Below are positions 23,135-63,428 of a stretch of 64,000 nt of DNA, piece by piece; the stretch's first letter is position 1, and each line of letters opens with the position of its first letter. A model generated the notes under the pieces. The model searched no databases. It saw only the letters and a program-made list of their open reading frames with translations, and was not told where the DNA came from. This DNA comes from a virus, in the IMG/VR virus record IMGVR_UViG_3300033145_000529, positions 84,198 through 148,197 of that record; one strand, given 5' to 3'. The position numbers and the translations under genes are program-made.

Positions 23135-23144
23135 CATAAAAGGC

Positions 23145-23173
23145 TTGACTTGCTTAAAGGCTTATGATATAAT
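23145..23173 (+). promoter_or_regulatory. sigma70-type promoter P5
   Basis: TTGACT, 17-base spacer ending GGCTTATGA, then TATAAT. The first in-frame ATG of the next gene (23172) overlaps the -10 itself, so the transcript from P5 would lack that start; read-through from the tRNA operon may supply it. Confidence 0.8.
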
Positions 23174-26791: not shown

Positions 26792-27025
26792 ACAATAAAC
26801 AAAAGAGCTTACTCACCCACCGAAATAGGTTTACGAATGGAGAAGGTAGTACCATTAAGACAACAAATAACTAAGGTTGTTCAGAATAATCCTCATTTAG
26901 ATAATAGTTTTCTTGTGTCAGGTTGTCTTTGTTCTCATTGGAACGACCTTGAAGAATGCGATAAATGTCTTGTAAGATTTTATTGTTATACTCATTTTAG
27001 AGTGAAAATTGCCCCTGTAGTGTAA
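26789..27025 (+). CDS. CRF-tag protein, 78 aa
   Basis: CDKCLVRFYCYT (Cys57, 60, 66) lies near the C-terminus, preceded by SGCLCSHW, which adds two cysteines. The first half is basic and helical. The last six residues and the stop lie inside tRNA-Arg(TCT). The start is in a stem (26671-26791). Confidence 0.7.
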   Translation: MTINKRAYSPTEIGLRMEKVVPLRQQITKVVQNNPHLDNSFLVSGCLCSHWNDLEECDKCLVRFYCYTHFRVKIAPVV

Positions 27026-27665: not shown

Positions 27666-27743
27666 GCTGGTGTAGCCCAATAAGGTAGAGGCAACAGCCT
27701 TAGAAGCTGTTCAGTGAGAGTCCGAATCTCTCCACCAGTACCA
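27666..27743 (+). tRNA. tRNA-Leu(TAG)
   Basis: Acceptor GCTGGTG/CACCAGT, anticodon loop CTTAGAA, discriminator A, encoded CCA. The variable region is only 5 bases, whereas bacterial Leu tRNAs normally have a long arm. Confidence 0.82.
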
Positions 27744-27755
27744 AAAGAGAATAAG

Positions 27756-28145
27756 ATGTATTTATACACGACAACTGACAATAGAACGATGAAAAGACAC
27801 TGGCATTTTGGTGGGAGAGAGTGTGATGGGTGTCAATATAGGTTTGAATGCTTTACTAGTAATAGAATCCATATTAAACTTGTGAAGGTGGATGTTACAG
27901 AGATACCTCACCTTTACCAACAGTGTGATAGATTCAAAGCGGAATTCCATTTACCAAAGTGTTTAAGACTTGGACTCTATAAACAAATAGCGGATTGTGG
28001 TTTTTGGAGTAGGAGTTACAGACAAAATTTCGGTGATGGATTCAAACTAGGAGCAATAATTGAAGAAGAAGATGAATATATTGATATAGAACGTGCGTGG
28101 GTGAAGTTTCCAGTTACTCTGTTTATAACTGGTACAATGAGATAA
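27756..28145 (+). CDS. CRF-tag protein, 129 aa
   Basis: ATG 27756 follows the tRNA-Leu CCA by 12 bases with AAGAGA before it. The CRF tag CDGCQYRFECFT (Cys23, 26, 32) is N-terminal. The C-terminal 80 residues (CDRFKAEFHLPKCLRLGLYK, WVKFPVTLFITG) look like a beta-rich domain. It ends 1 base before tRNA-Asp. Confidence 0.75.
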   Translation: MYLYTTTDNRTMKRHWHFGGRECDGCQYRFECFTSNRIHIKLVKVDVTEIPHLYQQCDRFKAEFHLPKCLRLGLYKQIADCGFWSRSYRQNFGDGFKLGAIIEEEDEYIDIERAWVKFPVTLFITGTMR

Positions 28146-30981: not shown

Positions 30982-31010
30982 TTGACTTTTAACGTGGCTT
31001 GTGGTATTAT
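30982..31010 (+). promoter_or_regulatory. sigma70-type promoter P6
   Basis: TTGACT, 17-base spacer ending GGCTTGTGG, then TATTAT. The G of GTG 31017 is 7 bases after the -10, the expected +1. Confidence 0.8.
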
Positions 31011-31016
31011 AATAGT

Positions 31017-31373
31017 GTGGACATAGTAATAGACCAAGAAGATACAATCTACCGTTATAAGTGCAACGAGCAATGTGATAATTGTCCGATGCGGTATGTT
31101 TGCTGGACACACAGGAAAGATGGTAATACTCTCCACTTAAAAGGACAATCCTATTTAGACCCGATGACTCGTGCTAGAGTGGGTTTGTTCGCAGGCAACC
31201 AAGAGACTTTATGTCCTTGGTGTTATCGAATAGAAAAGAAGGATGTAGCACGTAAACTTGGCGAAACTTGTCCCACTTGTGGTCATTATATAACATGTGA
31301 TAGTTGTATCAGAGATTGTAACCTCAGAAATGACCTCTATAACACTGATGGTGATTGCCTTATGACAAAGTAA
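31017..31373 (+). CDS. CRF-tag and zinc-site protein, 118 aa, probably leaderless
   Basis: The tag CDNCPMRYVCWT (Cys20, 23, 29; RY variant) is near the N-terminus. Two more Cys clusters follow (CPWCYRI..CPTCGHYITC, CDSCIRDC). GTG 31017 is at the expected +1 of P6; an upstream ATG (30999) lies inside the promoter. So the mRNA would be leaderless. Confidence 0.75.
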   Translation: MDIVIDQEDTIYRYKCNEQCDNCPMRYVCWTHRKDGNTLHLKGQSYLDPMTRARVGLFAGNQETLCPWCYRIEKKDVARKLGETCPTCGHYITCDSCIRDCNLRNDLYNTDGDCLMTK

Positions 31374-35593: not shown

Positions 35594-35860
35594 ATGGAAT
35601 TAAAAGTTTGCGAAACTAAAAAACGTTCTCTAGTAAAGGCAATATCGTTTAGGATTATTGAAGTTGCTATTGATACGCTTATACTTTCTTTCTTTATTCC
35701 CGTACCAATAGCCTTTGTATTGGCAATGGCTGTTGAGGGAATTTGTTTCGCTTTACATTTTGCGTTTGAGAGAGTCTGGAATAAAATAGATTATGGGAGA
35801 CACATATACAAACGCAAAAATAAGCAAACTAAATGGATGTTATATAAGCAGACTGAGTGA
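35594..35860 (+). CDS. DUF2061-like membrane protein, 88 aa
   Basis: KKRSLVKAISFRIIEVAIDT, a second helix VPIAFVLAMAVEGICFALHF, and FERVWNKIDYG match the DUF2061 pattern (K-x-xSWR-x-x-D; two helices; HERVWN-x-I-x-WG). Function unknown. Confidence 0.7.
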   Translation: MELKVCETKKRSLVKAISFRIIEVAIDTLILSFFIPVPIAFVLAMAVEGICFALHFAFERVWNKIDYGRHIYKRKNKQTKWMLYKQTE

Positions 35861-35867
35861 ACGGCTT

Positions 35868-36113
35868 ATGGGTCTGCTTATGATATTAGAAATAGAATTA
35901 TCGTGGGGCAAGAGATTGGCATTTAATACATGGGGCGTAGAGACTGCTAGTTTTATTTGTGAAGGTGAAAGAAAGTGTAGTGATTGTGAGTTTCGTTTTG
36001 CTTGCTATACCACCAACACCGTAATTAAGATTAAACGTGAGTTCACCGATTATCATAGTGCGATAAAATATAGAAACAACCTTAAAAAAAGGTTTAAGTG
36101 CCGAGTAGTCTAG
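35868..36113 (+). CDS. CRF-tag protein, about 81 aa
   Basis: CSDCEFRFACYT (Cys37, 40, 46) with basic residues after it (IKIKREF). I use ATG 35868, after the upstream stop; 35880 is possible. Its last codons and stop fall in tRNA-Gln. Confidence 0.65.
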   Translation: MGLLMILEIELSWGKRLAFNTWGVETASFICEGERKCSDCEFRFACYTTNTVIKIKREFTDYHSAIKYRNNLKKRFKCRVV

Positions 36114-37127: not shown

Positions 37128-37481
37128 TTAAAAAACATTCTCCTCTATTACGCAATATTTAGGAAGTTTAGTTTTTCTATTCTTTAAACTAAGTACCTCG
37201 TTTATCTCCTTATAAATTTTATCAACTTGTGACATTCTTCGGGGTTTGTAGTTTTCCTCACAAGCGGCAGAATCTTTGTGTACAAGCATCCCTGTAACCT
37301 CACAAAAACCTACAGGACGTTGAATTGTTCTGTATCCCTGTGCTTTCATGTCAAATTTGGCGTTCTGACACTTACCACAAGTGTTCTGAATTTTCCAATT
37401 TACTTTCACCCGTTTTGGTCTCTCGTTATTTGCTAGGGTAAAACATATAAAACGATACTCACACTCTTCACACCTAGGCAT
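37128..37481 (-). CDS. CRF-tag protein, 117 aa
   Basis: The tag CEECEYRFICFT (Cys4, 7, 13) starts the protein, followed by CGKCQNAKFD, FCEVTG and a basic helical C-terminus. Last gene of the minus-strand block. Extra Cys suggest a second metal site. Confidence 0.75.
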   Translation of the reverse strand: MPRCEECEYRFICFTLANNERPKRVKVNWKIQNTCGKCQNAKFDMKAQGYRTIQRPVGFCEVTGMLVHKDSAACEENYKPRRMSQVDKIYKEINEVLSLKNRKTKLPKYCVIEENVF

Positions 37482-37838: not shown

Positions 37839-38081
37839 TTAACTAGGATTATAGCATCTACGCTTCATGTTTACCCATGTGGTCATAAGAGGTTTTCTGA
37901 GATGGTAAGCAATTTTCTTATTTGCCAAATACTCTTTGTGTTGCTCCCTATAACACTGACACCACAAACTTACTTTGTCTTTATTAAGAGCATTCCATAT
38001 CTTGCTATAACAAGATTTACACAATCCATTTGCGTGGTGTTCTCTTTGCTTATTGCATTTTGTACATGTCATTAATTTCAT
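37839..38081 (-). pseudogene. truncated homing endonuclease N-terminus
   Basis: CTKCNKQREHHANGLCKSCY, then TWVNMKRRCYNPS-stop. Homing HNH proteins continue NPS-x-x-x-Y-x-x-YGG after this motif; here the Tyr codon appears as TAA. C-terminal fragments of this type lie at 39450. Confidence 0.55.
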
Positions 38082-39447
38082 TTTTATGCTTAATATACTC
38101 TCTAGCTTTGGCAAACGCTGATTCTCTATCATCTTTATTTAATTTTCCATCTATAACCAAGCTAGTTAAATAATTCTTTATATCACCAATAGCTTTACTA
38201 GGTTTAAGGTTAAACGCTTCCATAATCTCCACACCACTAATAGGTGATGTTAAAGTTTCTGGTTGTTCCTTCATACACTTATTTACTAATCTTGTTAAGA
38301 TAGTTATAAACTTGTAACGTGGGTTCTTTGAAGAACGAATATCACACCTCACTAAATCTAATAGCAGATAAATATTATCCTCCCCGACCTTCCTCACCAA
38401 CCGCATGATGATTCGCTTCCTAATTCTACCATTTCGAATTTCCCTTTGCAAAACAATAGGAGTCATATGATACTTTATCAAGTGGCATACGCTGTTTACG
38501 ATTTCGTTATTGTAACGTAATCTACGTAGAATCTTTCTAGTCTTTCTAGCACCCACATTGTGGTGTCCATAGAAGTGAACACCGTCATCATCTTCTATCT
38601 TTGTCTCTGGTTTTCCAATATCGTGGAAGATACAAGCAAGACGGAAGATTAGATTTCTATTGCCAGCATCTACTTTACTACCTTTGTGTAGAACTAACAA
38701 TGAATGTTCGTAAGCATCTTTCGTGTGATTTTTTCCCTGTGGTATATACCTTAGATCCATAAACTCAGGTGCTACATAATACATCAATCCAGTCTGACAT
38801 AGTTTTCTGACACCAAAAGAAGCTCTATATGAAAGAATAATTTTGGTAAACTCGTCACGTATTCTTTCCTTAGAGATAATTTCCAGTCGTTCTGGATGCT
38901 CAATTCTTATACCTAGAGAGAATCCAAATTGGCAAGCAAACCTAATGGCTCTTAACATTCTTAGCGGGTCGGATGAAAATCTCTCGTTGAAATCTCCCAC
39001 GCATCTAATAACTTTATTTTTAATATCTTCTTGCCCATTAAACGGGTCTATAATGGTGTCTACACCATGGTTAATAGACCTTATCAAATCAATAGCCATA
39101 GCATTAATATTAAAGTCCCGCCGACTCAAATCATCATATATGTTATCACTAAATGTCACTGTTGGATTACGAGAATCAGAAGTGTATTTTTCCCCTCTGT
39201 ATGTAGTTACCTCAATGGTTATGCTTGCTGTATTGAGACCAATTGTTCCAAAAGCTTCTCCAATAGAATAAATGCTACCAAACTCATCCAATAGTTCTTT
39301 TATCTTATCTGGATGAATATTAGTTGCCATATCAATATCGTGTGATTCTCTATTAAGAATAATATCACGAACAGTACCACCCACTAGATACAACTCGGCA
39401 TTATTTTTAGCAAACTTGGTTGCTATTCTTTTTACAATATCTTCCAC
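38050..39447 (-). CDS. cca: CCA-adding tRNA nucleotidyltransferase
   Basis: The nucleotidyltransferase head has LVGGTVRDIILN, HDIDMATNI, and RRDFNINAMA; then the RNA-binding region, and an HD domain (CIFHDIGKPET, HHNVGARK). 465 aa, GTG start at 39447 after GAGG. It adds CCA to tRNA 3' ends; about half of the phage tRNAs here lack an encoded CCA. A damaged copy of the N-terminus lies at 40103. Confidence 0.93.
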   Translation of the reverse strand: MEDIVKRIATKFAKNNAELYLVGGTVRDIILNRESHDIDMATNIHPDKIKELLDEFGSIYSIGEAFGTIGLNTASITIEVTTYRGEKYTSDSRNPTVTFSDNIYDDLSRRDFNINAMAIDLIRSINHGVDTIIDPFNGQEDIKNKVIRCVGDFNERFSSDPLRMLRAIRFACQFGFSLGIRIEHPERLEIISKERIRDEFTKIILSYRASFGVRKLCQTGLMYYVAPEFMDLRYIPQGKNHTKDAYEHSLLVLHKGSKVDAGNRNLIFRLACIFHDIGKPETKIEDDDGVHFYGHHNVGARKTRKILRRLRYNNEIVNSVCHLIKYHMTPIVLQREIRNGRIRKRIIMRLVRKVGEDNIYLLLDLVRCDIRSSKNPRYKFITILTRLVNKCMKEQPETLTSPISGVEIMEAFNLKPSKAIGDIKNYLTSLVIDGKLNKDDRESAFAKAREYIKHKNEINDMYKMQ

Positions 39448-40976: not shown

Positions 40977-41225
40977 TTACTTCTCAAATTTTGTCTTTCT
41001 CTCTCGTTTAACTTTTATTTCAGTATAGCATCGGAAGCGAAGTTTACAGTGCTCACATTTTTCCCTATCTTTCATAGCGGCAGTTCGTTCTCTACACTCT
41101 TGGATAAAATCAATGAGTGATAAGTCCTCAGCGTTCATTTGCGGATTACTAGGTAGCCTCCTCCAAGCTGTTGATACTGGTATAGCTTGTCGTAGTGCTT
41201 TAATCATATCCTCATTTTCGCACAT
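40977..41225 (-). CDS. CRF-tag protein, 82 aa
   Basis: Helical start, then CEHCKLRFRCYT (Cys57, 60, 66) with a Lys/Arg tail (EIKVKRERKTKFEK). The tag near a basic end recurs in several proteins. Confidence 0.72.
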   Translation of the reverse strand: MCENEDMIKALRQAIPVSTAWRRLPSNPQMNAEDLSLIDFIQECRERTAAMKDREKCEHCKLRFRCYTEIKVKRERKTKFEK

Positions 41226-41337: not shown

Positions 41338-41742
41338 TTACCTTCTTGTCGTATAACACTTAAATCGTGCATCACACTTCTCACAGTGTTCTGTAGGGAA
41401 CTTTCCATAGCTCCAACAAACCTTAAATGGATTACCACACGTTGAGCAGGTGGGATACTTTCTAACTTCACCCATGTTGTATATAGAAACATCACAAGTA
41501 GGACAATACCATACTATCTTCTTCTGCTCACCAATGTTTCCTTTTATACCAATGAAGTCAAGCCCAAAAGGAGTATTGTTCCACCACAATCCGCAACCCG
41601 CACACTTCACATTAACGATTAGTCCACCGCTTAGACGACCCTCGTAGAACTTTTTACTACCGCAGTTCAGACAAGCTAGTTCCTCTGCTGGCATCTTTTC
41701 CGTGTCAATTATTCTACGTTTTCTTTTTAAGAAGTCAAACAT
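41338..41742 (-). CDS. double zinc-ribbon with C-terminal CRF tag, 134 aa
   Basis: CLNCGSKKF..CAGCGLWW, CPTCDVSI..CSTCGNPF, then CEKCDARFKCYTTRR (Cys120, 123, 129) at the very end. Like the glycosylase at 50514, the tag closes the chain. Confidence 0.75.
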   Translation of the reverse strand: MFDFLKRKRRIIDTEKMPAEELACLNCGSKKFYEGRLSGGLIVNVKCAGCGLWWNNTPFGLDFIGIKGNIGEQKKIVWYCPTCDVSIYNMGEVRKYPTCSTCGNPFKVCWSYGKFPTEHCEKCDARFKCYTTRR

Positions 41743-42082
41743 TTATCGCTTCGTCATCAAATTTCTTTGTCATTGCTTTGCACATCTGATAAGTTAAATT
41801 CGTAAAAGCCTTTGATGCCTCATCCACTGTAATCATTTGTGCTTTCATACATTGCTGTAGCTTCTGTAGTCCTATATGGGTATCTTCAAAGACACTCATT
41901 GATTGCGGTCTACCAGCAGTCCAGCATTGAAATCTTTGGTCACATTTGCTACAATGCCTGTGGTCAACTTCTCTTTCTTTTATTCTGCACTGTTCAAACC
42001 TCCATTCGGGTGTGGTTTTATCTATATAGTAGTCACTGTCTTTCTTAATCATATCAAGTTGTAACTTAGGTAACCTTAACAC
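41735..42082 (-). CDS. CRF-tag protein, 115 aa
   Basis: HCSKCDQRFQCWT (Cys44, 47, 53) lies mid-protein between a basic start and a helical half (GLQKLQQCMKAQMITVDEAS). Overlaps its neighbour by 8 bases. Confidence 0.72.
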   Translation of the reverse strand: MLRLPKLQLDMIKKDSDYYIDKTTPEWRFEQCRIKEREVDHRHCSKCDQRFQCWTAGRPQSMSVFEDTHIGLQKLQQCMKAQMITVDEASKAFTNLTYQMCKAMTKKFDDEAINV

Positions 42083-45372: not shown

Positions 45373-45558
45373 TTATTTACTTCTAAGTGTATATCTTGAC
45401 TCACTACTATGCTGTCCCATAGAAATCCGCATCCTCGCTCCACCTCTACTTGCCCAACATCTAAAACGCTTGTCACACTTGTTACACTTTTCTTCATCTA
45501 ATCTATGGGCTACATCATAATCAACCTCAATTATTGGTAATTCCGTCTGGTTCATCAA
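45373..45558 (-). CDS. CRF-tag protein, 61 aa
   Basis: CNKCDKRFRCWAS (Cys25, 28, 34; A in place of T) with a basic, Ser-rich tail. Overlaps the next tag gene by 32 bases. Small, like 22149. Confidence 0.7.
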   Translation of the reverse strand: MMNQTELPIIEVDYDVAHRLDEEKCNKCDKRFRCWASRGGARMRISMGQHSSESRYTLRSK

Positions 45559-45760
45559 ATTTTACCTGTATATCTTTTAATATATCACTTAGTTTAGTAA
45601 CTTCAGCCGAAGACACCCTTGCATCATTCGTTTTAATGCGTTCAGTAAAACATTGAAACCTATACTTACAAGCATTGCAACTTTGTGGTGCGGTTTTTAT
45701 TTTGTCGCATTGCTTTATAACAAGCTCTTTTCCATCCCAATTGAACTCTAATTTACTCAC
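45527..45760 (-). CDS. CRF-tag protein, 77 aa, probably leaderless
   Basis: CNACKYRFQCFTE (Cys28, 31, 37). The GTG start is 7 bases after the -10 of P9, at the expected +1, as for 31017. A short helix follows the tag (SSAEVTKLSDILKDIQVKFD). Confidence 0.72.
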   Translation of the reverse strand: MSKLEFNWDGKELVIKQCDKIKTAPQSCNACKYRFQCFTERIKTNDARVSSAEVTKLSDILKDIQVKFDEPDGITNN

Positions 45761-46177: not shown

Positions 46178-46585
46178 TTATTCCTTTTCTATGTAATCTC
46201 GAAAAGCTCCAAAATCTATAAACTTATCTCGAAGCTCTTTAGCAACGGCTTCCGTATCCATTCCCACTTTCTTCAAGAGATAATCAGTGAGGTCATAAGG
46301 ACTGACAGTAGTAAAGGTGCAACAAGGGCAATGCTTCGCAAGTATTTCATGGATTGCATCACAGTAGTCATCGGTATCTTCGCTACCCTCTGCCAGTTTG
46401 TTTAACATTTCCTCAAGTTCTTCCCCATTGATAGCGTGGTCTTTACAGAATATATGACCATTTTCACACTTATACATTTCTGCTTCCTCTAACCCAACAT
46501 CCCAACCAGATACAGTCTCCGCACAGACCTCACAGATAAAGGAAGTTGAACTGCTGTTACTGATAAATCCTTTTCTTATTTTCAT
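46178..46585 (-). CDS. SNSSS protein 1 with zinc site, 135 aa
   Basis: MKIRKGFISNSSSTSFIC starts the protein: the shared N-terminal block. It continues CEVC, CENGHIFCKDH, CPCC, a RING- or treble-clef-like zinc pattern. One of five genes with this start. Confidence 0.75.
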   Translation of the reverse strand: MKIRKGFISNSSSTSFICEVCAETVSGWDVGLEEAEMYKCENGHIFCKDHAINGEELEEMLNKLAEGSEDTDDYCDAIHEILAKHCPCCTFTTVSPYDLTDYLLKKVGMDTEAVAKELRDKFIDFGAFRDYIEKE

Positions 46586-46594
46586 CTTCTCTCC

Positions 46595-46894
46595 TTATCC
46601 ATTGTACCAAGCTTGTGAGTGTGTGTTACACACTACATCTGTCCCAAATATCTCAATAAGATTGCGTCTTATAGTTTCCCTAAACTCTCGACCAGTTTCG
46701 TCATCCAGAATAGCGTCCCAACTCCTCCCAACATACCTTTGCTCATCCAAATCTGGTGCGTATTCAATGATGAGGTCAGCATTGCGTATCTTTTGCTCAA
46801 TTTCCTCAGTAATGTCTGCCTTCTCCACTTGAATACCATAAAGCAAAAAACTTTCTGAGGAACTATTACTAACAAATCCTATTCTTACTTTCAC
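46595..46894 (-). CDS. SNSSS protein 2, 99 aa
   Basis: GTG start after AGGAGG. MKVRIGFVSNSSSESFLL, then an acidic region. No other motif. The block is the only part shared with neighbours. Confidence 0.75.
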   Translation of the reverse strand: MKVRIGFVSNSSSESFLLYGIQVEKADITEEIEQKIRNADLIIEYAPDLDEQRYVGRSWDAILDDETGREFRETIRRNLIEIFGTDVVCNTHSQAWYNG

Positions 46895-46903
46895 TTCATC
46901 CTC

Positions 46904-47455
46904 CTAATGACAGCTTATTTGTTTGTGGGGAAGATTATTGAATATCCCCCCATGTTCTAGCACAGAGAAATAATCTCTATCATCTCCATATCTAAATATG
47001 TAAATTTTCTGCCCTTTAAATTCTTTTAGTAACTCGTCCACGACTACCTGTGTGTGTTCATCACAAGCTTTAGAGTATGCTTTCCAATCGGTCTGCTCTC
47101 TAACTCTAGCTGTAATAATAGTTTTGTTATCATATTCTAGCTCGGTAATGTGATGTGGTATTATCTTGAAATCATCGTAATTTGGTTGTCCGCTCAACCA
47201 ACCACCCCTGACAGCATCATTAACTCTATTTAGCATTGTTGTGTGCTTCCACCGTTTTTGTGGTTTTATATCCCCCCACACTGTCTGTGCAATCTTCTTC
47301 GTTTCAGTTTTGCCATCATCATAAGGATTGCCCAGAAATGGATGACCATTAAACATCATTTCATGCACATCTTTGATGCTCTTTGGTTCACGTGGAAAAG
47401 CCACCACAAACATAGAGCTAGAACTATTACTTACAAAACCTGTACGTATCTTCAC
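46904..47455 (-). CDS. SNSSS protein 3, 183 aa
   Basis: MKIRTGFVSNSSSSMFVV, then an alpha/beta body (VDELLKEFKGQKIYIFRYGD). The largest member. Body not recognised. Confidence 0.75.
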   Translation of the reverse strand: MKIRTGFVSNSSSSMFVVAFPREPKSIKDVHEMMFNGHPFLGNPYDDGKTETKKIAQTVWGDIKPQKRWKHTTMLNRVNDAVRGGWLSGQPNYDDFKIIPHHITELEYDNKTIITARVREQTDWKAYSKACDEHTQVVVDELLKEFKGQKIYIFRYGDDRDYFSVLEHGGIFNNLPHKQISCH

Positions 47456-47509
47456 GTTGTTTCCTTACCAGAACTTTTCATTTCCTAGTGATATTTCTGA
47501 CCTTATCTT

Positions 47510-47692
47510 TCATTTTACCCCAATTACCATACACCTTTCGGGTAGTTGTAAACCTTTCTTCAGAGTTACTTCTAAATATTCCGACCCTTCTGTAGTATAG
47601 CAATGAAATTTAATAGGACATTTAGTACACTCTCCATTACACCTAACAGTAGGAAATCCCTGCATACTTATCCACCTTCTATATTTGCCCAT
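47510..47692 (-). CDS. CRF-tag protein inside the SNSSS cluster, 60 aa
   Basis: CNGECTKCPIKFHCYTTE (Cys22, 25, 31; KF variant). Flanked by SNSSS genes, so the two elements share a transcript. Confidence 0.72.
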   Translation of the reverse strand: MGKYRRWISMQGFPTVRCNGECTKCPIKFHCYTTEGSEYLEVTLKKGLQLPERCMVIGVK

Positions 47693-47693
47693 A

Positions 47694-47936
47694 TTACATG
47701 GTCATATCTGCTTGTAAGTTATGCTTTTCCAAAAACGCTGGTATTAGCTTATCGTGCATACTTAGATTACCATGAAAATGTTTCTCACTTTCATAGATAT
47801 AGGTATCACCGCTTTTTGCCTCAGCTTCATGATAAACAAACCGAAAATCTATCATCTGTTCTTTTGTCATACCATCTTTATCAAGGACAAAGGAACAGGA
47901 AGAAGAATTACTTACAAAACCACTTCTAATTTTCAT
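47694..47936 (-). CDS. SNSSS protein 4, 80 aa
   Basis: MKIRSGFVSNSSSCSFVL after GAGGTG. The rest is short and His-rich at one spot (EKHFHGNLSMHDK). Not recognised. Confidence 0.75.
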   Translation of the reverse strand: MKIRSGFVSNSSSCSFVLDKDGMTKEQMIDFRFVYHEAEAKSGDTYIYESEKHFHGNLSMHDKLIPAFLEKHNLQADMTM

Positions 47937-48346
47937 CTTTTTTCACCTCTATTAGTATAGCATATAAACCTCATTTGACATTCATTACACATTAAGTCAC
48001 ATTCTAAATCATCGGTCTCGGCAGTAGGTTGAATCCCATCACCCCATACTACGTTCTCAACACCAAGTTTTTCCATAAATGCTCCCATATCAAAATTGTC
48101 CATAGAAGTGCTACTGTATAGCACACCTTTTCTTATGGTAATATCCCAAGCATCACTTTTTGCGTATTCTATACCAAGCCTCTCACCCCATATCTGATGA
48201 TTGAGTATTTTACACAGTTGTTCGAGTGATAACTTGCGTAATGATACCACAAAAGACGAACTGCTACTATTACTTACAAATCCATTTCGTATCTTCATCG
48301 GTTTAAAATCTATTCCAAATTTTGCTTCTATTCGTTTTAGCTCCAT
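47933..48346 (-). CDS. SNSSS protein 5 with C-terminal CRF tag
   Basis: Carries both elements: MKIRNGFVSNSSSSSFVV and, near the C-terminus, CNECQMRFICYTNR. I set the start at ATG 48346, coupled to the small upstream frame; this puts 16 residues before the block. ATG 48298 would start at the block but lacks a binding site. Confidence 0.65.
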   Translation of the reverse strand: MELKRIEAKFGIDFKPMKIRNGFVSNSSSSSFVVSLRKLSLEQLCKILNHQIWGERLGIEYAKSDAWDITIRKGVLYSSTSMDNFDMGAFMEKLGVENVVWGDGIQPTAETDDLECDLMCNECQMRFICYTNRGEKR

Positions 48347-48435
48347 ATCGTATCTGACCACCTTGCCTGAAACCAATACCCTGAACCTCTTTTACTATAA
48401 TGGGCTATAATTTGCTCATTATTTGTTATCAACAT
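48337..48435 (-). CDS. possible 32-aa peptide
   Basis: MLITNNEQIIAHYSKRGSGY WFQARWSDTIWS-stop, whose stop overlaps ATG 48346. Possibly a leader peptide. Uncertain. Confidence 0.3.
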   Translation of the reverse strand: MLITNNEQIIAHYSKRGSGYWFQARWSDTIWS

Positions 48436-48482: not shown

Positions 48483-49562
48483 CTAACTATTTTTTATCCC
48501 TAAATCATATATTAAACATTTGCGACAACCGTTACAATCTATTTCTGCGAGACTTCTCTTTCTATATTTATCAAGCAATGGGTGATTCCAAATGTCTTTA
48601 ACAAAATCATTACAATTCAAGACATCTAATCCTTCAGACCACTCCCCAACACCTTCGGCAAAGCTACAGGGGAAATATTTTCCGTCTACGTTGATATAGC
48701 CAGAAAATAAACCAAATGACTCACAGGATTCTGACATAGTTTTGTATGTCTCAAAGTTTTTATCACCTTCAACTGCCTTCAGAAAAGCTGGTGCAGAACA
48801 ACTATCAAACCCAAACTTGCCACCAGTTTCCATTGCAGTTCCAATTAAATCCTTGAACCTTTTCATCGAATCGAGTTGATTCAAGTGATTCCTTTTACCT
48901 TTTGGTTTTAACCACAAGAATACTACTGCGTTCAAGCCTGCAAGTCGTGAGTCTATTACTTTGTCAAGGAGTGTAGTATAACAATCCATAAAAGTTTCTT
49001 TTGAAAGGAGAGAGTGTATATTTACCTGCTTCATTCCCTTATCTGAAAGCTCCTTAACAGCATTATAACAGGTATCTTTATCATACTTACTAACCGCAAC
49101 AGCTCCACACAGCTCCACTAACTTATCATACAAATCAGATGTCATTCGCTCACCGTTTATGGTAATATTTGGAATAACATTACTTTTTCTACAATACTCC
49201 ATCATCTTCCATAAGTTAGGATTACTGTCAATATCACCTATTCCGAATGCTACTTGTGTCAAGGTCGGTGGCATTTTGTCCAAAATAACCTTGAATGTCT
49301 CAAAGGACATGTTCTTACCCTTGTATGTACCATTACTTTTGTAGCACCAGGGGCACGCTCTAGAACAAATGGTACTTACCTCTATGTCCAATATCTCATT
49401 ACCGAATGGCGAATATTCGGGGTCATCTTTCTTGTTCTTCCCCCACCTAGCAAAGAAACCAGTATTCTTATCAAAATAAGAATTAAAATTTTCGGAACGA
49501 ACTATTTTTTCATCTACAGTATCAGTTACTAGCAACTCTTTTGCACCACCTAATGAACACAT
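48483..49562 (-). CDS. radical SAM/SPASM-like enzyme, 359 aa
   Basis: The CxxxCxxC cluster is CSRACPWC near residues 66-73. The C-terminal part has CSAPAF, CSFAEG and CNGCRKCLIYD, which recalls the SPASM or Twitch auxiliary-cluster domain. It acts on SAM and usually modifies peptides or proteins. It lies upstream of the SNSSS genes, so those, or CRF-tag proteins, are possible substrates (inference). Confidence 0.88.
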   Translation of the reverse strand: MCSLGGAKELLVTDTVDEKIVRSENFNSYFDKNTGFFARWGKNKKDDPEYSPFGNEILDIEVSTICSRACPWCYKSNGTYKGKNMSFETFKVILDKMPPTLTQVAFGIGDIDSNPNLWKMMEYCRKSNVIPNITINGERMTSDLYDKLVELCGAVAVSKYDKDTCYNAVKELSDKGMKQVNIHSLLSKETFMDCYTTLLDKVIDSRLAGLNAVVFLWLKPKGKRNHLNQLDSMKRFKDLIGTAMETGGKFGFDSCSAPAFLKAVEGDKNFETYKTMSESCESFGLFSGYINVDGKYFPCSFAEGVGEWSEGLDVLNCNDFVKDIWNHPLLDKYRKRSLAEIDCNGCRKCLIYDLGIKNS

Positions 49563-50513: not shown

Positions 50514-51245
50514 TCATCTAAAGCAATAGAACCTTTGCTTACAATTTTTACACTTATCAGAACTTCCCCACCACCTCTGACAAGCTCTTTTCCTTTGCTC
50601 CAACTCAATTAAAATTGGTTGAAGATGTTCACTAAATTCAACAGGTGCATCAACAAGTCGTAACTGTTTATCTATATGTTTAATGCTTAATGCTTCCTTT
50701 ACCGTTTTCTCAATTTCATCCCTAATCAGTCTGCCCCGTTCAGTACCCGTACCTCCAGAATGTGCAATTGCCGCTGGATGGTATGTTACAATCACACTAT
50801 ACTTCTGTCGCCAAGTAAATTTAGTTCCTACAATATCTTTCATCGCAACCTTTGTATCACCACCCAAAGCAACGTAAGGTATCTTACCCATACAAACAAT
50901 GATTACTGGTTGAAGTGCCTCTACCTCAGCGTACAAGCGGTCATTACAGCATCGTATTTCTACATCAGTTGGTGTGCGGTTGTATGTTTTCCCATCCACT
51001 ACTTTAGTTGGTCTGCACGTAACAACATTTATATAGTTTCCATCTTCCCGTTTTGCACCTAAAGATTCAACGATTCGATTAAAGTCTTGACCTGCCACTC
51101 CAACCAAAGGTCTACCTTCTTGTGCTTCATGGTATCCAGGAGCCTCTGCTAAAAACAATACCTTTGAGTCGTGTAATTCAGACGGTACATAAACATTATT
51201 TTTTAGTGGGCACTCTTCACATTTACCTGATGTAGCTTTTATCAT
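50514..51245 (-). CDS. family-4-type uracil-DNA glycosylase with C-terminal CRF tag
   Basis: Cys9 and Cys12 (CEECPL) plus Cys in TCRPT and RCCND give the 4Fe-4S of family 4. FLAEAPGYHEAQEGRPLVGV AG is the active-site region and TYHPAA the H-P motif. It removes uracil from DNA. After about residue 200 an extra tail ends CKNCKQRFYCFR: the CRF tag (Cys232, 235, 241), not a part of such enzymes. Evidence that the tag is a module. Confidence 0.92.
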   Translation of the reverse strand: MIKATSGKCEECPLKNNVYVPSELHDSKVLFLAEAPGYHEAQEGRPLVGVAGQDFNRIVESLGAKREDGNYINVVTCRPTKVVDGKTYNRTPTDVEIRCCNDRLYAEVEALQPVIIVCMGKIPYVALGGDTKVAMKDIVGTKFTWRQKYSVIVTYHPAAIAHSGGTGTERGRLIRDEIEKTVKEALSIKHIDKQLRLVDAPVEFSEHLQPILIELEQRKRACQRWWGSSDKCKNCKQRFYCFR

Positions 51246-52449: not shown

Positions 52450-52635
52450 TCATTTCTTATCCTCATTTTTACTTCTCTGTTCTGCACAATATGCCTGATA
52501 GAGTAACATCATGGATGCAAGTTCATCTCTTCCTGTTCCTTTTCCAATACCAATTACGATGTGACCCCAACAATAATTGATAATCTCTTGAAAGTTCATA
52601 CCCTCAAACACGTCACCATAGTAATGTTTCTTCAT
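52450..52635 (-). CDS. hypothetical protein, 61 aa
   Basis: MKKHYYGDVFEGMNFQEIIN YCWGHIVIGIGKGTGRDELA. Not recognised. Overlaps the next stop by four bases. Confidence 0.55.
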   Translation of the reverse strand: MKKHYYGDVFEGMNFQEIINYCWGHIVIGIGKGTGRDELASMMLLYQAYCAEQRSKNEDKK

Positions 52636-52928
52636 ACCTTCACCCTCATTACAAGTTTAGTTTCAGTTTCGCCAGAAGGAGTAGTGCGTTGCTGTTCTTC
52701 AATTTCATAGGGTATTTTCCCCTCACTAAACATATATTTTGCCACGCTCCTTAAATCTTTTATCTTATATCGTTTTATAGTATCTTGCGGAATTTGTATT
52801 TCGTTCCGTTCTGATAAACATAAAAACCTCAGTCTACAACCATCGCACAGTGATTTTCGCCTACCCCTGCAATCAAACCCATTAAATTCTTGATTACCCT
52901 CAAGTTTGATAGTAACTCCCGTTGACAT
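52632..52928 (-). CDS. CRF-tag protein, about 98 aa
   Basis: CDGCRLRFLCLSE (Cys28, 31, 37; S in place of T). I start at ATG 52928; a longer frame to 53009 exists. The C-terminal 60 residues form a mixed domain (RYKIKDLRSVAKYMFSEGKI). Confidence 0.7.
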   Translation of the reverse strand: MSTGVTIKLEGNQEFNGFDCRGRRKSLCDGCRLRFLCLSERNEIQIPQDTIKRYKIKDLRSVAKYMFSEGKIPYEIEEQQRTTPSGETETKLVMRVKV

Positions 52929-53042
52929 TACCTTTTCACCACAATAAGTATTATTAATAAGGTTATTAACATAGACACAAAAAAAGTCATTAAAGTTCCC
53001 CATCTCCAAAACCGTGATAAAATGATAAATTTTGAGCGTAGA

Positions 53043-55598: not shown

Positions 55599-56159
55599 TC
55601 AATAATGTACGTCAGCAGGTACACAAAATATACTCTTATCCCGCAATTCGGGGTCTGGTTTACCTTCGTGATTACAAGCCCACCTACTCAAAACGTGGTT
55701 TAGGTGTTCATTATCCCTTATTCCCTCACCATCTTGGTCATAAAGAGAGACACAAGGTCCTTTGTATTGCCCAATCTGATAACAACGGAACATAAAACTA
55801 TGGTCTTCAAAAAGCTGGTCATCATTATGCGTGGCAAGGAGTTTCTTCATAGGAGCAAGATTTTCAAGGAACTCTTGTTTAGTTTTCTGCATGGCTTCCT
55901 CTATCATGGAGTTCGTCTGAATGGTATAGCACTTAAAACGTTCAGAACACTTGTCACACTTGTCTGACCCCAAATCAGCACAAACCTTTACTGCTGGTGG
56001 CATTTCACCCCAACGTTCCAAAGCATGTTTATCATTGAATGTGCTAAAATAATCAAAAGGTTCACCCTCTCCACACAACCTATCCAAGACATAGTGAGCC
56101 TCACTTACTGCATCTTCCTCATCCTCTGCAAAAACTAATATTTTGACAATCATGTGCAT
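55599..56159 (-). CDS. CRF-tag protein, 186 aa
   Basis: The tag CDKCSERFKCYT (Cys68, 71, 77) sits between an N-terminal alpha/beta domain (MIVKILVFAEDEEDAVSEAH) and a C-terminal one (GPCVSLYDQDGEGIRDNEH). Here the tag is internal. Domains not recognised. Confidence 0.75.
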   Translation of the reverse strand: MHMIVKILVFAEDEEDAVSEAHYVLDRLCGEGEPFDYFSTFNDKHALERWGEMPPAVKVCADLGSDKCDKCSERFKCYTIQTNSMIEEAMQKTKQEFLENLAPMKKLLATHNDDQLFEDHSFMFRCYQIGQYKGPCVSLYDQDGEGIRDNEHLNHVLSRWACNHEGKPDPELRDKSIFCVPADVHY

Positions 56160-56302: not shown

Positions 56303-56551
56303 TTAAACGACCTCCACATACTCCATCATAAGTTGCAAGGCTTCATCATAACTCTTACATTCATGTAATCGAGTTTGAAATTCTTCTACCAAGTAACAAA
56401 CCCCATCCCGTTCAGTGTAACATTTGAACTTGTGGTGGCAATCTTCACATCTTTCTTCGCTATGTTCAGCCCTTTTAAGAGTTCTAGTTACTATCCCAGC
56501 GAGATTGAAGACGTTGCCATCTTCTTCTGTTAGCTTACACTCTGGTTTCAT
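56303..56551 (-). CDS. CRF-tag protein, 82 aa
   Basis: CEDCHHKFKCYTE (Cys35, 38, 44; KF variant). A beta-like start and an acidic helical end (QTRLHECKSYDEALQLMMEY). Confidence 0.72.
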   Translation of the reverse strand: MKPECKLTEEDGNVFNLAGIVTRTLKRAEHSEERCEDCHHKFKCYTERDGVCYLVEEFQTRLHECKSYDEALQLMMEYVEVV

Positions 56552-56741: not shown

Positions 56742-57250
56742 TTCTTCCAAGCTAAACTGTCCTTCTTGTGGATATGTATTATTCTCGCTTTATGCCAGGA
56801 CCTAGTTTCCATCAATATTCTTTTCACCAAAATAGTATTTTTAATTGAGGGAGTCGCCAAACAATGGTACATGACGACAAATTTTCCCTCTTTACAAACA
56901 CGGACGGCTTCTGCGGTATATGTTCTGAACCTAAGTTTACCATATTTCTTGGTATCATAGAGCCGTTCAGCATATTCCTCGCTATAAGGTGGGTCTAGTA
57001 TGACCAAATCAAATGTGTTGTCCTCAAATGGTAAATCGTGAGCATCACCCACAAAATCGGGGTTGACCTCTGGGTCTATGTCTACTCGTAACCCGAACTC
57101 CGCTTGCCCTCCAAATGGATGTAATATCTTATGTATGGCAGGGTCTATATTTAATTCCTTTAAGAGCTTTTGCTCGAAGTGGAGAGGAAATGACCCTATG
57201 TATTTACTTTTATTTGGGCGTGGTAAAACCCACGCCAGTGTTTCTATCAT
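56738..57250 (-). CDS. class I methyltransferase-like protein, 170 aa
   Basis: LHPFGGQAEFGLRVDIDPEV, GDAHDLPFEDNTFDLVILDP PYSEEYAERLY. LDPPYS suggests a DNA or RNA methylase. Short C-terminus. Substrate unknown. Confidence 0.75.
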   Translation of the reverse strand: MIETLAWVLPRPNKSKYIGSFPLHFEQKLLKELNIDPAIHKILHPFGGQAEFGLRVDIDPEVNPDFVGDAHDLPFEDNTFDLVILDPPYSEEYAERLYDTKKYGKLRFRTYTAEAVRVCKEGKFVVMYHCLATPSIKNTILVKRILMETRSWHKARIIHIHKKDSLAWKK

Positions 57251-57477
57251 TTCAAAACTCCTAACAACCGTTTATAGCTATACCTCTTGTCCCTTTCAAA
57301 TTTGAGGGAATAGTCAAAATTTCTCTCAGTGAGGCATTGAAATCTATGATTACATTTGTTACACTTACTAATCTTACCTCTAAATTTACAGAGGCTTTTT
57401 GGTTTGTACCCTGGTGCTGTTGGTGGCATTGGTGGCATCTCATCGCTCCATCCCACTATAAATCTCCAAACATTCAA
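57247..57477 (-). CDS. CRF-tag protein, 76 aa
   Basis: CNKCNHRFQCLTE (Cys39, 42, 48) preceded by a Pro-rich segment (DEMPPMPPTAPGYKPK) and followed by a basic tail. Overlaps 57440. Confidence 0.72.
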   Translation of the reverse strand: MNVWRFIVGWSDEMPPMPPTAPGYKPKSLCKFRGKISKCNKCNHRFQCLTERNFDYSLKFERDKRYSYKRLLGVLK

Positions 57478-59158: not shown

Positions 59159-59515
59159 CTAAACAATAGCCCCTTTATTCGTGTAACAGTAGAACCTGTG
59201 TTCACATTCATCGCATTTAACTTTGTTCTCGCACCATAATGGTTGAAAGAACATCTCTAAAAACTCCCCATCTTTTTTCTTTGCCCTGCTGTTCTTCCAT
59301 ACTAACCAGATACCACCCTTATGGTATTCCAGATTAATTAATGCCCACCGATGGGAGACTTTAATCTCTTTACCATCACCACCATCACCAAGAGCTACCC
59401 CATCAACCCTTGAACATTCGGCGTAAATTGGACAGTTGTCACATTTCCTCCGCCAACATTCCATTGCCAGTTGAGTGAGGATTTCTCCACTCATATGTAG
59501 GATGCGTAGATACAA
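59159..59515 (-). CDS. CRF-tag protein, 118 aa
   Basis: CDNCPIYAECS near the N-terminus has the tag's Cys spacing without RF; the full tag CDECEHRFYCYT (Cys101, 104, 110) ends the chain. Start could be ATG 59494. Two related Cys units may be an old duplication. Confidence 0.72.
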   Translation of the reverse strand: MYLRILHMSGEILTQLAMECWRRKCDNCPIYAECSRVDGVALGDGGDGKEIKVSHRWALINLEYHKGGIWLVWKNSRAKKKDGEFLEMFFQPLWCENKVKCDECEHRFYCYTNKGAIV

Positions 59516-60031: not shown

Positions 60032-60157
60032 CTATATTATAACACATGCCGTTTTGTAAGTCAAGCTCCACATACCGCCGCACAAAACCACCTGCTGTTT
60101 TACTCGTTCATTCTTATGCTCTACTTTCCATTGCTTGTTATCAAATTTCAAATACAT
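60032..60157 (-). CDS. small protein overlapping P12, 41 aa
   Basis: MYLKFDNKQWKVEHKNERVK QQVVLCGGMWSL then codons that overlap P12. ATG overlaps the upstream stop by one base. Plausible. Confidence 0.4.
   Translation of the reverse strand: MYLKFDNKQWKVEHKNERVKQQVVLCGGMWSLTYKTACVII
60036..60064 (-). promoter_or_regulatory. sigma70-type promoter P12
   Basis: Minus strand: TTGACT, 17-base spacer ending GGCATGTGT, TATAAT. An ATG 7 bases after the -10 opens a 12-codon frame only. Confidence 0.8.
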
Positions 60158-60813
60158 TATTCCCAAAAAGAATTATTCCCCCAACTACCATACTTTGGTT
60201 TTGGCTCAGGTGCTCCTGTATAACACTTAAATCGTAAGTCACAGTTATTACATTTCTCGCTTTGTTTATTGGTTTCGTAGCAGTATTTTATAGCGAGTGC
60301 CTCGTTCACAACTCGTTCTGGTCTGTCAAATTCCCAATGAGCTTGCTCAACAAAGACCTCATTATCCTTGACAACCAAATTCCACCTATCCTCGTTGTCC
60401 TCACCCTGTGCTTCAATCTCTCCATCACAAATATGCCCCTTTAAGAAAGCAAACTGTTTTGGAAATCTGGTTTTAGCAACAGGGTCAGGTTTGAGGAAAT
60501 TTTGAATAATATACCACATCCATTCGGCTGAACAATAGAACTTCTCAGCTCCATCCCACTCAATATACTTGCCATCTTCGGTTGGTGTCCACTGACACCA
60601 CAAACCTGGTTGTTCAGGGGACGAGGTGTTACAGTCTATTATGTCGGGGTCTTCACCTTGCCCTGCCACACCAGTACCGTCAACGAAATATTCCCCATTT
60701 TTACGCAACATTCTCCTAGTCTTGGAGAACTTCTGTAAATACTCTATCTCCTTGCTGTTCAAGGTTGGTTCAATAGCTATTTCACCCCTAAAGTTTGTTG
60801 TGTATCCCATCAC
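60157..60813 (-). CDS. known-family protein with C-terminal CRF tag, 218 aa
   Basis: GYTTNFRGEIAIEPTLNSKE, GLWCQWTPTEDGKYIEWDGA EKFY, GEIEAQGEDNEDRWNLVVKD N match a family I recall in actinobacteria and phages (unknown role). The end adds CNNCDLRFKCYT (Cys188, 191, 197), absent from the relatives I remember. Confidence 0.75.
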   Translation of the reverse strand: MMGYTTNFRGEIAIEPTLNSKEIEYLQKFSKTRRMLRKNGEYFVDGTGVAGQGEDPDIIDCNTSSPEQPGLWCQWTPTEDGKYIEWDGAEKFYCSAEWMWYIIQNFLKPDPVAKTRFPKQFAFLKGHICDGEIEAQGEDNEDRWNLVVKDNEVFVEQAHWEFDRPERVVNEALAIKYCYETNKQSEKCNNCDLRFKCYTGAPEPKPKYGSWGNNSFWE

Positions 60814-60952
60814 TTCTCACCTTATTGACGTTCAATTCTTCTTTATCGCATATGGGGCAAGCGTACCAAGGAATACCTTCTCCACAATCTTTGCCACCAC
60901 CTACCCAAATTAAAATCAATCTTGCACCACATTTACACACTTTGTGAACCAT
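60788..60952 (-). CDS. zinc-ribbon protein, 54 aa
   Basis: MVHKVCKCGARLILIWVGGG, YACPICDKEEL. Start at ATG 60952, with overlaps on both sides. CxC and CxxC pairs fit a ribbon. Confidence 0.55.
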   Translation of the reverse strand: MVHKVCKCGARLILIWVGGGKDCGEGIPWYACPICDKEELNVNKVRSDGIHNKL

Positions 60953-61511
60953 ATTCCTTATCCCACCTCTCCCAACATTCGTGTTTGTCTTTGAAATGGT
61001 CACATGATGTAAATGAACTGACACCTATCCTACACCAATCCCAACGTGGTTTCTTACTATAATCTGCCAATTGATACCACCATGCGGGACAAACATAGTT
61101 TCTCATTTCAGACTTTGGTGGAAATATTGGATTTTTCAGCCATTCATTATAAGGTATTCCACCAAAATCCTCAAGCTTTAAAGTTTCCCCACCCTTACCC
61201 CCTTCCCCAACCCCAATGCCAGGATTTGTTTGAAATACCCTCTTAATCTTGTCCCTTATTTGCTGTCCTCTAAAATCAATCCATTCTACATGAATATGTG
61301 ACTTGCCAGTTCCTTTACATTTGTTGCAAACAACTCCTGCTCCATCCAATTCACCCATACCTACATAGATACCTGTTCCTTTACAAGCACCGCATTGAGT
61401 ATCAGTATAAAAGGAGAAAACAGTCGAGGTAAAGCACTCGTAACGAAACCTGCAATTATCGCAAGCTTTGTTGCCGTTAGCTTTTTGGACTTCTCTACAG
61501 TTTAGATTAAT
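60933..61511 (-). CDS. CRF-tag protein with DnaJ-type CxxCxGxG motifs, apparent AUU start
   Basis: The ATG at 61358 cannot be the start: the same frame upstream encodes the full CRF tag CDNCRFRYECFT (Cys17, 20, 26) and CGACKGTG, partner of the later CNKCKGTGKS (DnaJ zinc centre type). In frame, a TAG lies at 61512 and no ATG, GTG or TTG follows before the tag. ATT 61511 has GGGG 8 bases upstream. 192 aa if so. Confidence 0.65.
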   Translation of the reverse strand: MNLNCREVQKANGNKACDNCRFRYECFTSTVFSFYTDTQCGACKGTGIYVGMGELDGAGVVCNKCKGTGKSHIHVEWIDFRGQQIRDKIKRVFQTNPGIGVGEGGKGGETLKLEDFGGIPYNEWLKNPIFPPKSEMRNYVCPAWWYQLADYSKKPRWDWCRIGVSSFTSCDHFKDKHECWERWDKEYGSQSV

Positions 61512-61687: not shown

Positions 61688-61995
61688 TTTTCTTCCCTCA
61701 CAAAGTTTTCGTCTATTGGTACTCCCTCTCCATCCTTTCCAACCTTGAAGCCATAATTGAATTGTTTCTGCTTCATATAAAGAAGTAACTCTGTTTCATC
61801 ATCGTAGGAAATAACCTCAAGTAGAGTATCACTGTCAAGTAATGCTAATTTATTGTCGGGGTATTCTTCATATAATACTCTTGCCAACGTTAATCCCAAG
61901 AATACAGACTCCGTTAATATAGGTAGAATACCATATTGTTGGCAAACAAACAGAAGTTCTGAGATATTTGTCGCACATTTAAGTGTTCTTATCAT
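61684..61995 (-). CDS. hypothetical protein, 103 aa
   Basis: SELLFVCQQYGILPILTESV FLGLTLARVLY, DSDTLLEVISYDDETELLLY. Not recognised. Overlaps both neighbours. Confidence 0.6.
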   Translation of the reverse strand: MIRTLKCATNISELLFVCQQYGILPILTESVFLGLTLARVLYEEYPDNKLALLDSDTLLEVISYDDETELLLYMKQKQFNYGFKVGKDGEGVPIDENFVREEK

Positions 61996-63428
61996 TATCT
62001 ATCTTTATAAATTCCAGCTTCACGTAACTTGTTCACATCGAACTCGGCTTCACGCTGTGTCCAGCAAATAAACCGCATTTTACAAGCATCACATTGTTCA
62101 GGGTAGTTTTTGCACATTATGGGTATCTTTTGTGTACCCCTTCCATAGACATCACTAGTTTCTTCAACCGCCATAATCAGCCGACCCTGACCATTAACAG
62201 TCAAACCCTCATCCCGCAGAGCTATGATATGTTTGCACGTTCTGTTTCTACGAGTATTAAATATCCAAGATGGACAATTGTGAACATAGGCATTAGAAAT
62301 TATATAGTGTGGTTTATCATTGACCTCACAATTATAAACGTTTCCAATATATTTGTAACGTTCAATAGACCTAATAGATGTTGCAATCCAATCAGGCATA
62401 GAGTAATAATGTGTATTTGCCCCCTTTATTGCAAGACTACCACAATATTGAACTTTTGCGTTGCCAGCTCTTCCATTTATAATATAAGTATTGCGACTGT
62501 TACTTAAACACAAGGTATACAACTTGCCAAATCTTGCAGCAAGTAACTGAATTTGTAACGCTAGTGTCCTACTAGTAGTAGAAAACCTAAAACCAGAATT
62601 TGACCCATCCCCTTTAAGATATGCTTCTAAAAATGAGGTAGCTAATAATTCCTCTCCCATCAATATCCAATTAGGTATTTTCTTGTTCTCTGCACCACGA
62701 CCAAAGTGGTCACTCATAAATCGTGCTAATGGTTCATTGTGTATTGTTAAACGATAGCAGTTACCTACAACTTCGTCTGAAGTGCCAATACCCATAGAGT
62801 TGACATAAGATTGTACTTGTAAAGCATCACTTCTATCTTTATTGTTATTAAAATCTAGCGTAAACCCATTGCTATTTTTACTTCCCTCAGCAACATACCA
62901 ACCACACAACATAGCAAAATCCTGCGATAGTTTTATTTGTCGTGTACCACGATTCCGCCACTCTGGTGCTTTTACATACTTTGTCAAATCAAACATTTTG
63001 ACCACGTGTGTAGTTTTAAGTCGTGGTATCAAAAGATAATTACTTTTCTTCCTATTATGATACTCCAATTGTCCAGAAAGCTTCCACAATGGCTCGCTAA
63101 ATCTGTAGCCATTTCCATATCTATAATGTTCTACCACAAAAAATGGGTGTTCACATGTACAGCTAATTGGCAACAACCCAGTGGCTTTTATGCAAAGCAA
63201 ATCCTCATTTACTTGTCGTGTTAATACTTGACTTATTATATCTGTTTTAATATTGACTACGTTATCCCCGACAACTAAATCTTCAATGTTCTTGTTTGCC
63301 CCAAGGATAAATGTACCTTCTGGAAAACAATTACAACTAAACATACCATGTTCATCTACTTTAATAGTATAGTGCTTGTTGGGATTAGATTGAGACGAAA
63401 TTTCTGCAACAAAATTATACTGTTTCAT
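61995..63428 (-). CDS. SWIM-domain CRF-tag protein split by an intein, 477 aa
   Basis: N-extein residues 1-33 end FSCN. The intein is about residues 34-384: it starts CFPEGTFILG, has HPFFVVEHY (block B His), the endonuclease motifs LCGWYVAEGSK and LEAYLKGDGS, and ends AYVHN. C-extein starts CPSWIF..RTCKHI. Joining gives FSCNCPSWIF and C-x-C..C-x-H, a complete SWIM zinc finger. The C-extein carries the CRF tag CDACKMRFICWT. Mature protein about 126 aa. Confidence 0.88.
   Translation of the reverse strand: MKQYNFVAEISSQSNPNKHYTIKVDEHGMFSCNCFPEGTFILGANKNIEDLVVGDNVVNIKTDIISQVLTRQVNEDLLCIKATGLLPISCTCEHPFFVVEHYRYGNGYRFSEPLWKLSGQLEYHNRKKSNYLLIPRLKTTHVVKMFDLTKYVKAPEWRNRGTRQIKLSQDFAMLCGWYVAEGSKNSNGFTLDFNNNKDRSDALQVQSYVNSMGIGTSDEVVGNCYRLTIHNEPLARFMSDHFGRGAENKKIPNWILMGEELLATSFLEAYLKGDGSNSGFRFSTTSRTLALQIQLLAARFGKLYTLCLSNSRNTYIINGRAGNAKVQYCGSLAIKGANTHYYSMPDWIATSIRSIERYKYIGNVYNCEVNDKPHYIISNAYVHNCPSWIFNTRRNRTCKHIIALRDEGLTVNGQGRLIMAVEETSDVYGRGTQKIPIMCKNYPEQCDACKMRFICWTQREAEFDVNKLREAGIYKDR

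Follow-up and report, generated by a model that had tools for sequence, protein, structure and literature searches.

A cysteine-rich tag at the C terminus of a phage uracil-DNA glycosylase is used on many otherwise unrelated proteins of the same phage lineage

Why does a DNA-repair enzyme of an uncultured virus end in a short cysteine-rich tail? The question arises at open reading frame (ORF) 50514-51245 (-) of the stretch analysed here (the window: 64,000 nucleotides, bases 84198-148197 of a 148,197-base virus record that we label G000). The 243-residue product, with an ATG start, comprises a uracil-DNA glycosylase (UDG) core, residues 1-198 (50652-51245, -), followed by a 45-residue tail, residues 199-243 plus the stop codon (50514-50651, -). 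Near its end lies a three-cysteine motif, hereafter the CRF tag, that recurs throughout the genome. We compared G000 with eight fetched relatives, G001-G008; all nine contigs are metagenomic and uncultured, genes were called as simple ORFs, and G005 is approximately the same strain as G000 (98-100% identity), some counts being given without it.

By sequence, cysteines and fold the product is a family-4 UDG, predicted to excise uracil. The Pfam UDG domain (PF03167) matches residues 26-162 at 5.8e-22, and the best NCBIfam models are both of type-4 UDG (NF040953, 4.9e-28; TIGR00758, 1.2e-27). The EAPG and HPAA motifs are present, and C9, C12, C77 and C100, which we take to be the ligands of the enzyme's own Fe-S cluster, are invariant in an alignment of eight UDG sequences. 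Foldseek matched the AlphaFold2 core to the solved UDGs 1ui0, 1l9g and 6ail (E ~1e-15, TMt ~0.8). UdgX enzymes, which crosslink to uracil-DNA, are marked by a KRRIH motif containing the crosslinking His; this motif is not present here, the equivalent stretch being KVVDGKTYNRTPT, and a UdgX identity was rejected. Several lines of evidence place the end of the core well before the end of the protein. The AlphaFold2 model is confident up to about residue 187, the Thermotoga maritima UDG aligns only to residue 181 and the Thermus thermophilus UDG only to residue 163, and three phage orthologs are shorter. An earlier sequence-only reading had called the glycosylase recognisable and complete without its last ~40 residues and had placed its own 4Fe-4S cysteines elsewhere; the alignments, shorter orthologs and modelled core agree with the first statement, and all four cluster cysteines do lie outside the tail. 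The UDG gene of G008, 74971-76476 (+) (L170, L171), has an intein-like insert of ~300 residues directly before its CRPT cluster cysteine.

The same reading regarded the tag as appended to the enzyme, and the orthologs bear this out: the tail is an add-on, present on the UDGs of G000, G001 and G006 and missing from those of G004, G003 and G008, which end ...DRQLQLF, ...KQFRLL and ...KQLKLL at the equivalent of residue ~198, where the tail begins. The untailed enzymes are 48-61% identical to the tagged cores. In G000 the tail ends CKNCKQRFYCFR, and the C-terminal end of the protein is ...CQRWWGSSDKCKNCKQRFYCFR. The tag itself, CKNCKQRFYC, occupies residues 232-241 (50523-50552, -; pattern scan and ortholog alignment), with cysteines at 232, 235 and 241, and this copy stops after CFR. 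A fourth cysteine, C222, precedes the first cysteine of the tag by 10 residues and is kept in G001 and G006. The AlphaFold2 model, which carries no information on metal, gives a predicted local distance difference test score (pLDDT) below 50 for residues 191-201, as for a disordered linker (predicted span ~188-205), about 70 for a helix at 206-226 and 41-57 for the tag; the tail is most naturally read from this model as a flexible linker joined to a separate small unit.

The source of the tail was sought close by. No tagged ORF matches it much beyond the tag region, and fusion with a separately encoded relative was rejected. G003, G004 and G008 are themselves rich in tags, and a tagged gene directly follows the UDG in each; these genes are not the tail and were likewise rejected as its source. 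A tree of six UDGs did not tell gain of the tail from loss.

How often the tag occurs was determined with the pattern C-x2-C-x2-[RK][FYW]-x-C, which prescribes the three cysteines and, in part, Arg7 and Phe8, but not Thr12 or an upstream cysteine. The nine contigs contain 315 tags, 3-68 per contig (297 in the eight contigs without G005), and mis-spaced or misordered control motifs number 0-5 each over the nine contigs together and 0-2 per contig. The resulting consensus is 12 residues long, C-[DEN]-x-C-x-x-R-F-x-C-[YWF]-T: position 7 is R or K in all copies and the next residue F or Y in 312 of 315, position 11 is aromatic in 258 and position 12 is T or S in 300. The 148-kb record has 34 credible tags in separate genes, 25 of them in the window; a further match in G000, CSRCSNKWSC at 75.5 kb, looks like chance. 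Large genomes encode ~33-68 tagged proteins each.

The pattern of conservation points to the protein as the target of selection. Over 201 ortholog pairs, identity at the free tag sites 2, 3, 5 and 9 is 21-29%, against 44% outside the tag, and reaches 86% at Arg7, 94% at Phe8 and 87% at Thr12. The fixed Cys, Arg and Phe are encoded by freely varying codons, and the mean nucleotide identity of the G000 tags is 58%. Varied codons at fixed residues show that selection acts on the protein, and they rule out a translated DNA or RNA element.

Could the tail be a chance extension, or a trait of ordinary glycosylases? A tail common in ordinary bacterial glycosylases was the observation that the sequence-only reading had named as telling against it. 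A UDG match was found in 110 of 150 Pseudomonadota genomes, and none aligned beyond query residue 187; in 25 phage records, no UDG alignment extended beyond residue 212. As to chance, shuffling the residues of the proteins yields a mean of 0.035 tags, and G001 and G006 retain the tail. We consider both forms of this explanation refuted. Cellular host genomes were also rejected as a source of the tag, the pattern occurring there at about chance frequency: among 84,980 species genomes scanned there were 33 single matches, where the pattern's information content predicts ~30. Of the 33, two look real. These are L119 and L117, small contigs in metagenome-assembled genomes labelled Rhodobacteraceae and Gammaproteobacteria, whose CRF genes look genuine; they are probably fragments of related phages, and their labels give a weak hint of the host.

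Among viruses, degenerate DNA scans of 2.9 million contigs found a few related contigs matched many times, with scattered single matches that are mostly chance; the small contigs G167 (4 tags) and G172 (3 tags) probably belong to the same phage lineage. Profile searches of Pfam, NCBIfam, PHROGs and PDB found no family for the tag, and a tblastn search of named phages with the short consensus, a query too short to be informative, gave no match. The pattern occurs 0 times in phage G, 0 times in KLEB27-3 and 2 times, in forms that are not tag-like, in Moorella MTATph1. Literature searches of partial coverage found no such tag described. None of the named phages in the collection searched is close to G000; the sole match to its portal there is that of phage G, at 22%. 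Taken together, these searches show a tag restricted, in the collections covered, to one phage lineage.

Within that lineage many otherwise unrelated proteins share the tag as a module. With the tag masked and a BLAST cut-off of 1e-4, the 305 tagged ORFs of the nine contigs fall into 194 families, and the 33 tagged ORFs of G000 into 33. One family, in G001, G004, G006, G007 and G008, has the tag immediately after an L7/L12 C-terminal domain (PF00542, 1.3e-11 in G001; a tagged member is L030 212-658, +). Modular use, which the sequence-only reading had proposed from the glycosylase, is upheld by the UDG orthologs with and without the tail, by the tagged L12-like domain and by the 33 families from 33 ORFs. 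Tagged proteins are mostly small, with a median of 117 residues in G000, and many have further CxxC pairs.

Tagged genes are mostly accessory, as two observations indicate. A run of 37-55 kb without tags is found in every one of the five large contigs; in G000 it measures 43 kb, or 55 kb if the match at 75.5 kb is ignored, and contains the portal gene and its surrounding block. In addition, ~52 families of at least 100 residues are common to the five large contigs, and tagged members occur in only a few of them: the family of the gene at 87629, the UDG, and a component that probably takes in the SWIM zinc-finger protein through its intein. The UDG is thus one of the rare core enzymes with a tag.

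Small carriers rich in cysteine pairs would suit an explanation in which the tag is a mere metal-stabilised fold nucleus for tiny proteins, whose copies have no shared partner and multiplied through duplication and recombination where accessory genes are densely packed; three cysteines are invariant and other sites are free. The UDG and L12 domains, however, fold without the tag and yet have it, constraint extends beyond the cysteines to Phe8, the aromatic residue at 11 and Thr12, and in the named phages checked the tag is missing from the small proteins. We consider a folding aid of this kind distinctly improbable.

The cysteines suggest what the tag might hold. Spacings of x2 and x5 with a fourth cysteine nearby are the ligand pattern of the 4Fe-4S sites of the EndIII/MutY loop, WhiB and Cas4/AddB. 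In the tags, a cysteine lies 3-16 residues upstream in 71% of copies, with spacing peaks at -4, -5, -8 and -10, and 106 of 117 ortholog comparisons show it conserved. Three fixed cysteines with a usual and conserved fourth make a predicted metal site likely, and by analogy 4Fe-4S appears more likely than zinc as its content.

Such a site could also be a knuckle that binds DNA or RNA directly. The cysteine spacing C-x(n)-C-x2-C-x5-C is as in the EndIII 4Fe cluster domain, Arg7 is conserved, Lys or Arg is frequent at position 9, and one carrier is a DNA glycosylase; the MutY loop is described as touching the DNA backbone (PMC12000561). Against this, the tag is also found on an L12-like domain, a domain of translation, and residues upstream of the tag are often acidic. 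The Pfam matches of tag fragments (EndIII_4Fe-2S in 2 of 101, best E 0.049; also WhiB) are weak, at chance level and not evidence of membership. Direct nucleic-acid binding is the strongest of the rivals, although we think it unlikely.

Our preferred reading is a metal-binding tag, specific to the lineage, that docks proteins to a shared partner or place. We prefer it to a nucleic-acid knuckle, a folding aid or a packaging signal, and hold it to be evenly poised between right and wrong. Its basis is that the commonest reason for one element to sit on dozens of unrelated proteins of a single genome is a common partner. The tag unit would span ~35 residues: a flexible linker, a helix with one Cys and then C-x2-C-x2-[RK]-F-x-C-[YWF]-T. 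It would fold around a metal and expose the conserved Arg, Phe, aromatic residue and Thr as a docking face; an Arg-Phe...aromatic-Thr set on a metal-stabilised turn that can be placed freely looks like a docking element. Dozens of accessory, non-structural proteins, tagged N-terminally, internally or C-terminally, would thereby be brought to a single partner or compartment common to them all, of the phage or of its host. On the UDG core the tag would place the glycosylase with this shared machinery, most likely at phage DNA, and leave core catalysis unchanged. Metal binding, a common partner and recruitment of the UDG, which the sequence-only reading had also suggested with a phage structure as its target, are what we infer from the pattern. 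A broader proposal, which we advance tentatively, is that one metal-binding tag might act as a general address code for much of the accessory proteome, read by a single hub and gained or dropped on proteins such as the UDG and the L12-like family, a genome-wide recruitment system undescribed in any virus.

Several points weigh against docking. Of the 315 tags, 111 are C-terminal, 43 N-terminal (starting within the first 20 residues) and 161 internal, and internal placement of half of all copies is unusual for a sorting signal. No cysteine lies 3-16 residues upstream in 29% of tags, so a four-cysteine site is not universal; those copies would need another ligand, or one from the partner. AlphaFold2 of the tag alone reaches a pLDDT of 66, too weak for interpretation. 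Finally, the UDG is kept without its tail in three relatives, an indication that the enzyme in itself does not require the tag.

Placement bears equally on the idea that the tag is a packaging signal, by which accessory proteins would enter the virion and be injected together with the DNA. T4 capsid targeting sequences load proteins into the virion and are N-terminal and cleaved in the prohead. A T4-type targeting sequence was rejected here, with only 43 of 315 tags starting within 20 residues of the N terminus. The CRF tag is indeed shared, at a large cost in coding space, by many small non-structural proteins and a repair enzyme, as packaging might lead one to expect, but its placement is free, no link to capsid genes was found and the tagged genes lie outside the structural block. 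Packaging seems to us highly improbable.

The remaining tags of the window were located by pattern scan and by position within the ORF. On the plus strand they lie at 3477-3506 in ORF 3432-3836 (a tagged family of 9 members in 8 contigs), at 10785-10814 near the C terminus of ORF 10608-10844, at 22239-22268 at the C terminus of the 44-residue ORF 22149-22283, at 23406-23435 in ORF 23100-23528, at 26957-26986 in ORF 26789-27025, at 27822-27851 in ORF 27714-28145, at 31074-31103 in ORF 30999-31373 (an RY variant) and at 35976-36005 in ORF 35793-36113. On the minus strand, a tag at 37443-37472 lies at the N terminus of ORF 37128-37481, and others follow at 41028-41057 (ORF 40977-41225), 41356-41385 (C-terminal, ORF 41338-41742), 41924-41953 (ORF 41735-42082), 45457-45486 (ORF 45373-45558), 45650-45679 (ORF 45527-45760) and 47600-47629 (a KF variant, ORF 47510-47692). 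The C terminus of ORF 47933-48376, which also has a GFVSNSSSSSF motif, carries the tag at 47960-47989. Beyond the glycosylase, also on the minus strand, tags occur at 52818-52847 (ORF 52632-53009), 55929-55958 (ORF 55599-56159, the tag position being kept in 5 contigs), 56420-56449 (ORF 56303-56551), 57334-57363 (ORF 57247-57477), 59186-59215 (C-terminal, ORF 59159-59515), 60223-60252 (ORF 60157-60813) and 61434-61463 (an RY variant, ORF 60933-61511). The last, at 62064-62093 (-), is near the C terminus of the SWIM protein 61995-63428 (-), which has a LAGLIDADG intein (PF14528, 3.7e-8; PF14890, 1.5e-4) inserted just before a conserved Cys; its relatives in five contigs are 120-139 residues long and thus without the intein. 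An array of ~22 small genes occupies 25-36 kb of G003 (L035). In places the genes follow one another at ~250 bases, many of their products terminate in a CRF tag (CxxCxxRFxCWTE), and a single family contributes five paralogs to the contig.

A second shared motif, MK[IV]RxGF[VI]SNSSSxSF, stands at or near the start of five adjoining genes at 46178-48376 (-). Genes of the GFVSNSSS type are also clustered, 4-9 each, in G001, G003, G005 and G006, and one gene has both motifs; homologs of that protein (47933-48376) in G003 and G008 are without the tag. Adjoining the cluster is a gene for a radical SAM protein with a weak SPASM domain, 48483-49562 (-). Elsewhere in the window are 27 tRNA genes among small ORFs at 12080-35493 (+) and a gene for a CCA-adding-enzyme-like protein at 38050-39447 (-). 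A 653-residue protein encoded at 24176-26137 (+) has no match in Pfam, PHROGs or PDB and occurs only in G000, G005, G001 and G006. It was considered as a candidate hub, since it matches the presence pattern of the tagged UDG, but five other families do too, and the match carries no weight.

Collectively, these results suggest an undescribed shared tag linking many phage proteins to one partner or place. A docking code, if correct, would offer a handle on what dozens of small uncharacterised proteins of a large phage share, and finding the reader of the tag would give all tagged proteins a place and probably a role. The UDG, which occurs with the tag and without it in closely related phages, amounts to a natural experiment that allows a direct comparison of one enzyme in both forms. 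As a further use, the motif C-x2-C-x2-[RK]-F-x-C-[YWF]-T is a marker of this phage lineage.

Several known systems resemble parts of this arrangement. The phage enzyme shares with the family-4 UDGs TM0511 and TthUDG the catalytic core, the four Fe-S cysteines and the EAPG and HPAA motifs, but known members match only before residue ~190, and no CRF tail was seen outside the phage lineage. The EndIII/MutY Fe-S loop, itself present in DNA glycosylases, similarly arranges C-x(n)-C-x2-C-x5-C in a compact unit. In that loop the pattern is C-x6-C-x2-C-x5-C, whereas the tag fixes x2 and x5 and has a variable first spacing, missing in 29% of copies; the loop lacks the R-F...T signature, the tag sits on nearly 200 unrelated families, and comparison of the two gave no significant profile match and no PDB relative. 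WhiB and Cas4/AddB have C-x2-C-x5-C with a distant extra cysteine. Their likeness to the tag is in the cysteines only, the motif being fixed in single domains and not a mobile tag, and none of the WhiB, Cas4 or AddB domains was found at a significant E-value in the representatives scanned. The T4 targeting sequence and the F-box-like (PRANC) tails of poxviruses offer a precedent of one short signal on several viral proteins leading to one partner; unlike the CRF tag, they are terminal, not cysteine-based and on far fewer proteins per genome. Phage proteins with an inserted L12 C-terminal domain have been described (PMC6375957), and these share the L12 domain with the family found here, which differs in the CRF tag that follows it in five contigs. 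Selective import into the nucleus of PhiKZ-like phages likewise concentrates chosen phage proteins, replication proteins included, but its cargo is reported to have no linear motif in common (PMC11087766), whereas the CRF phages have a plain linear motif.
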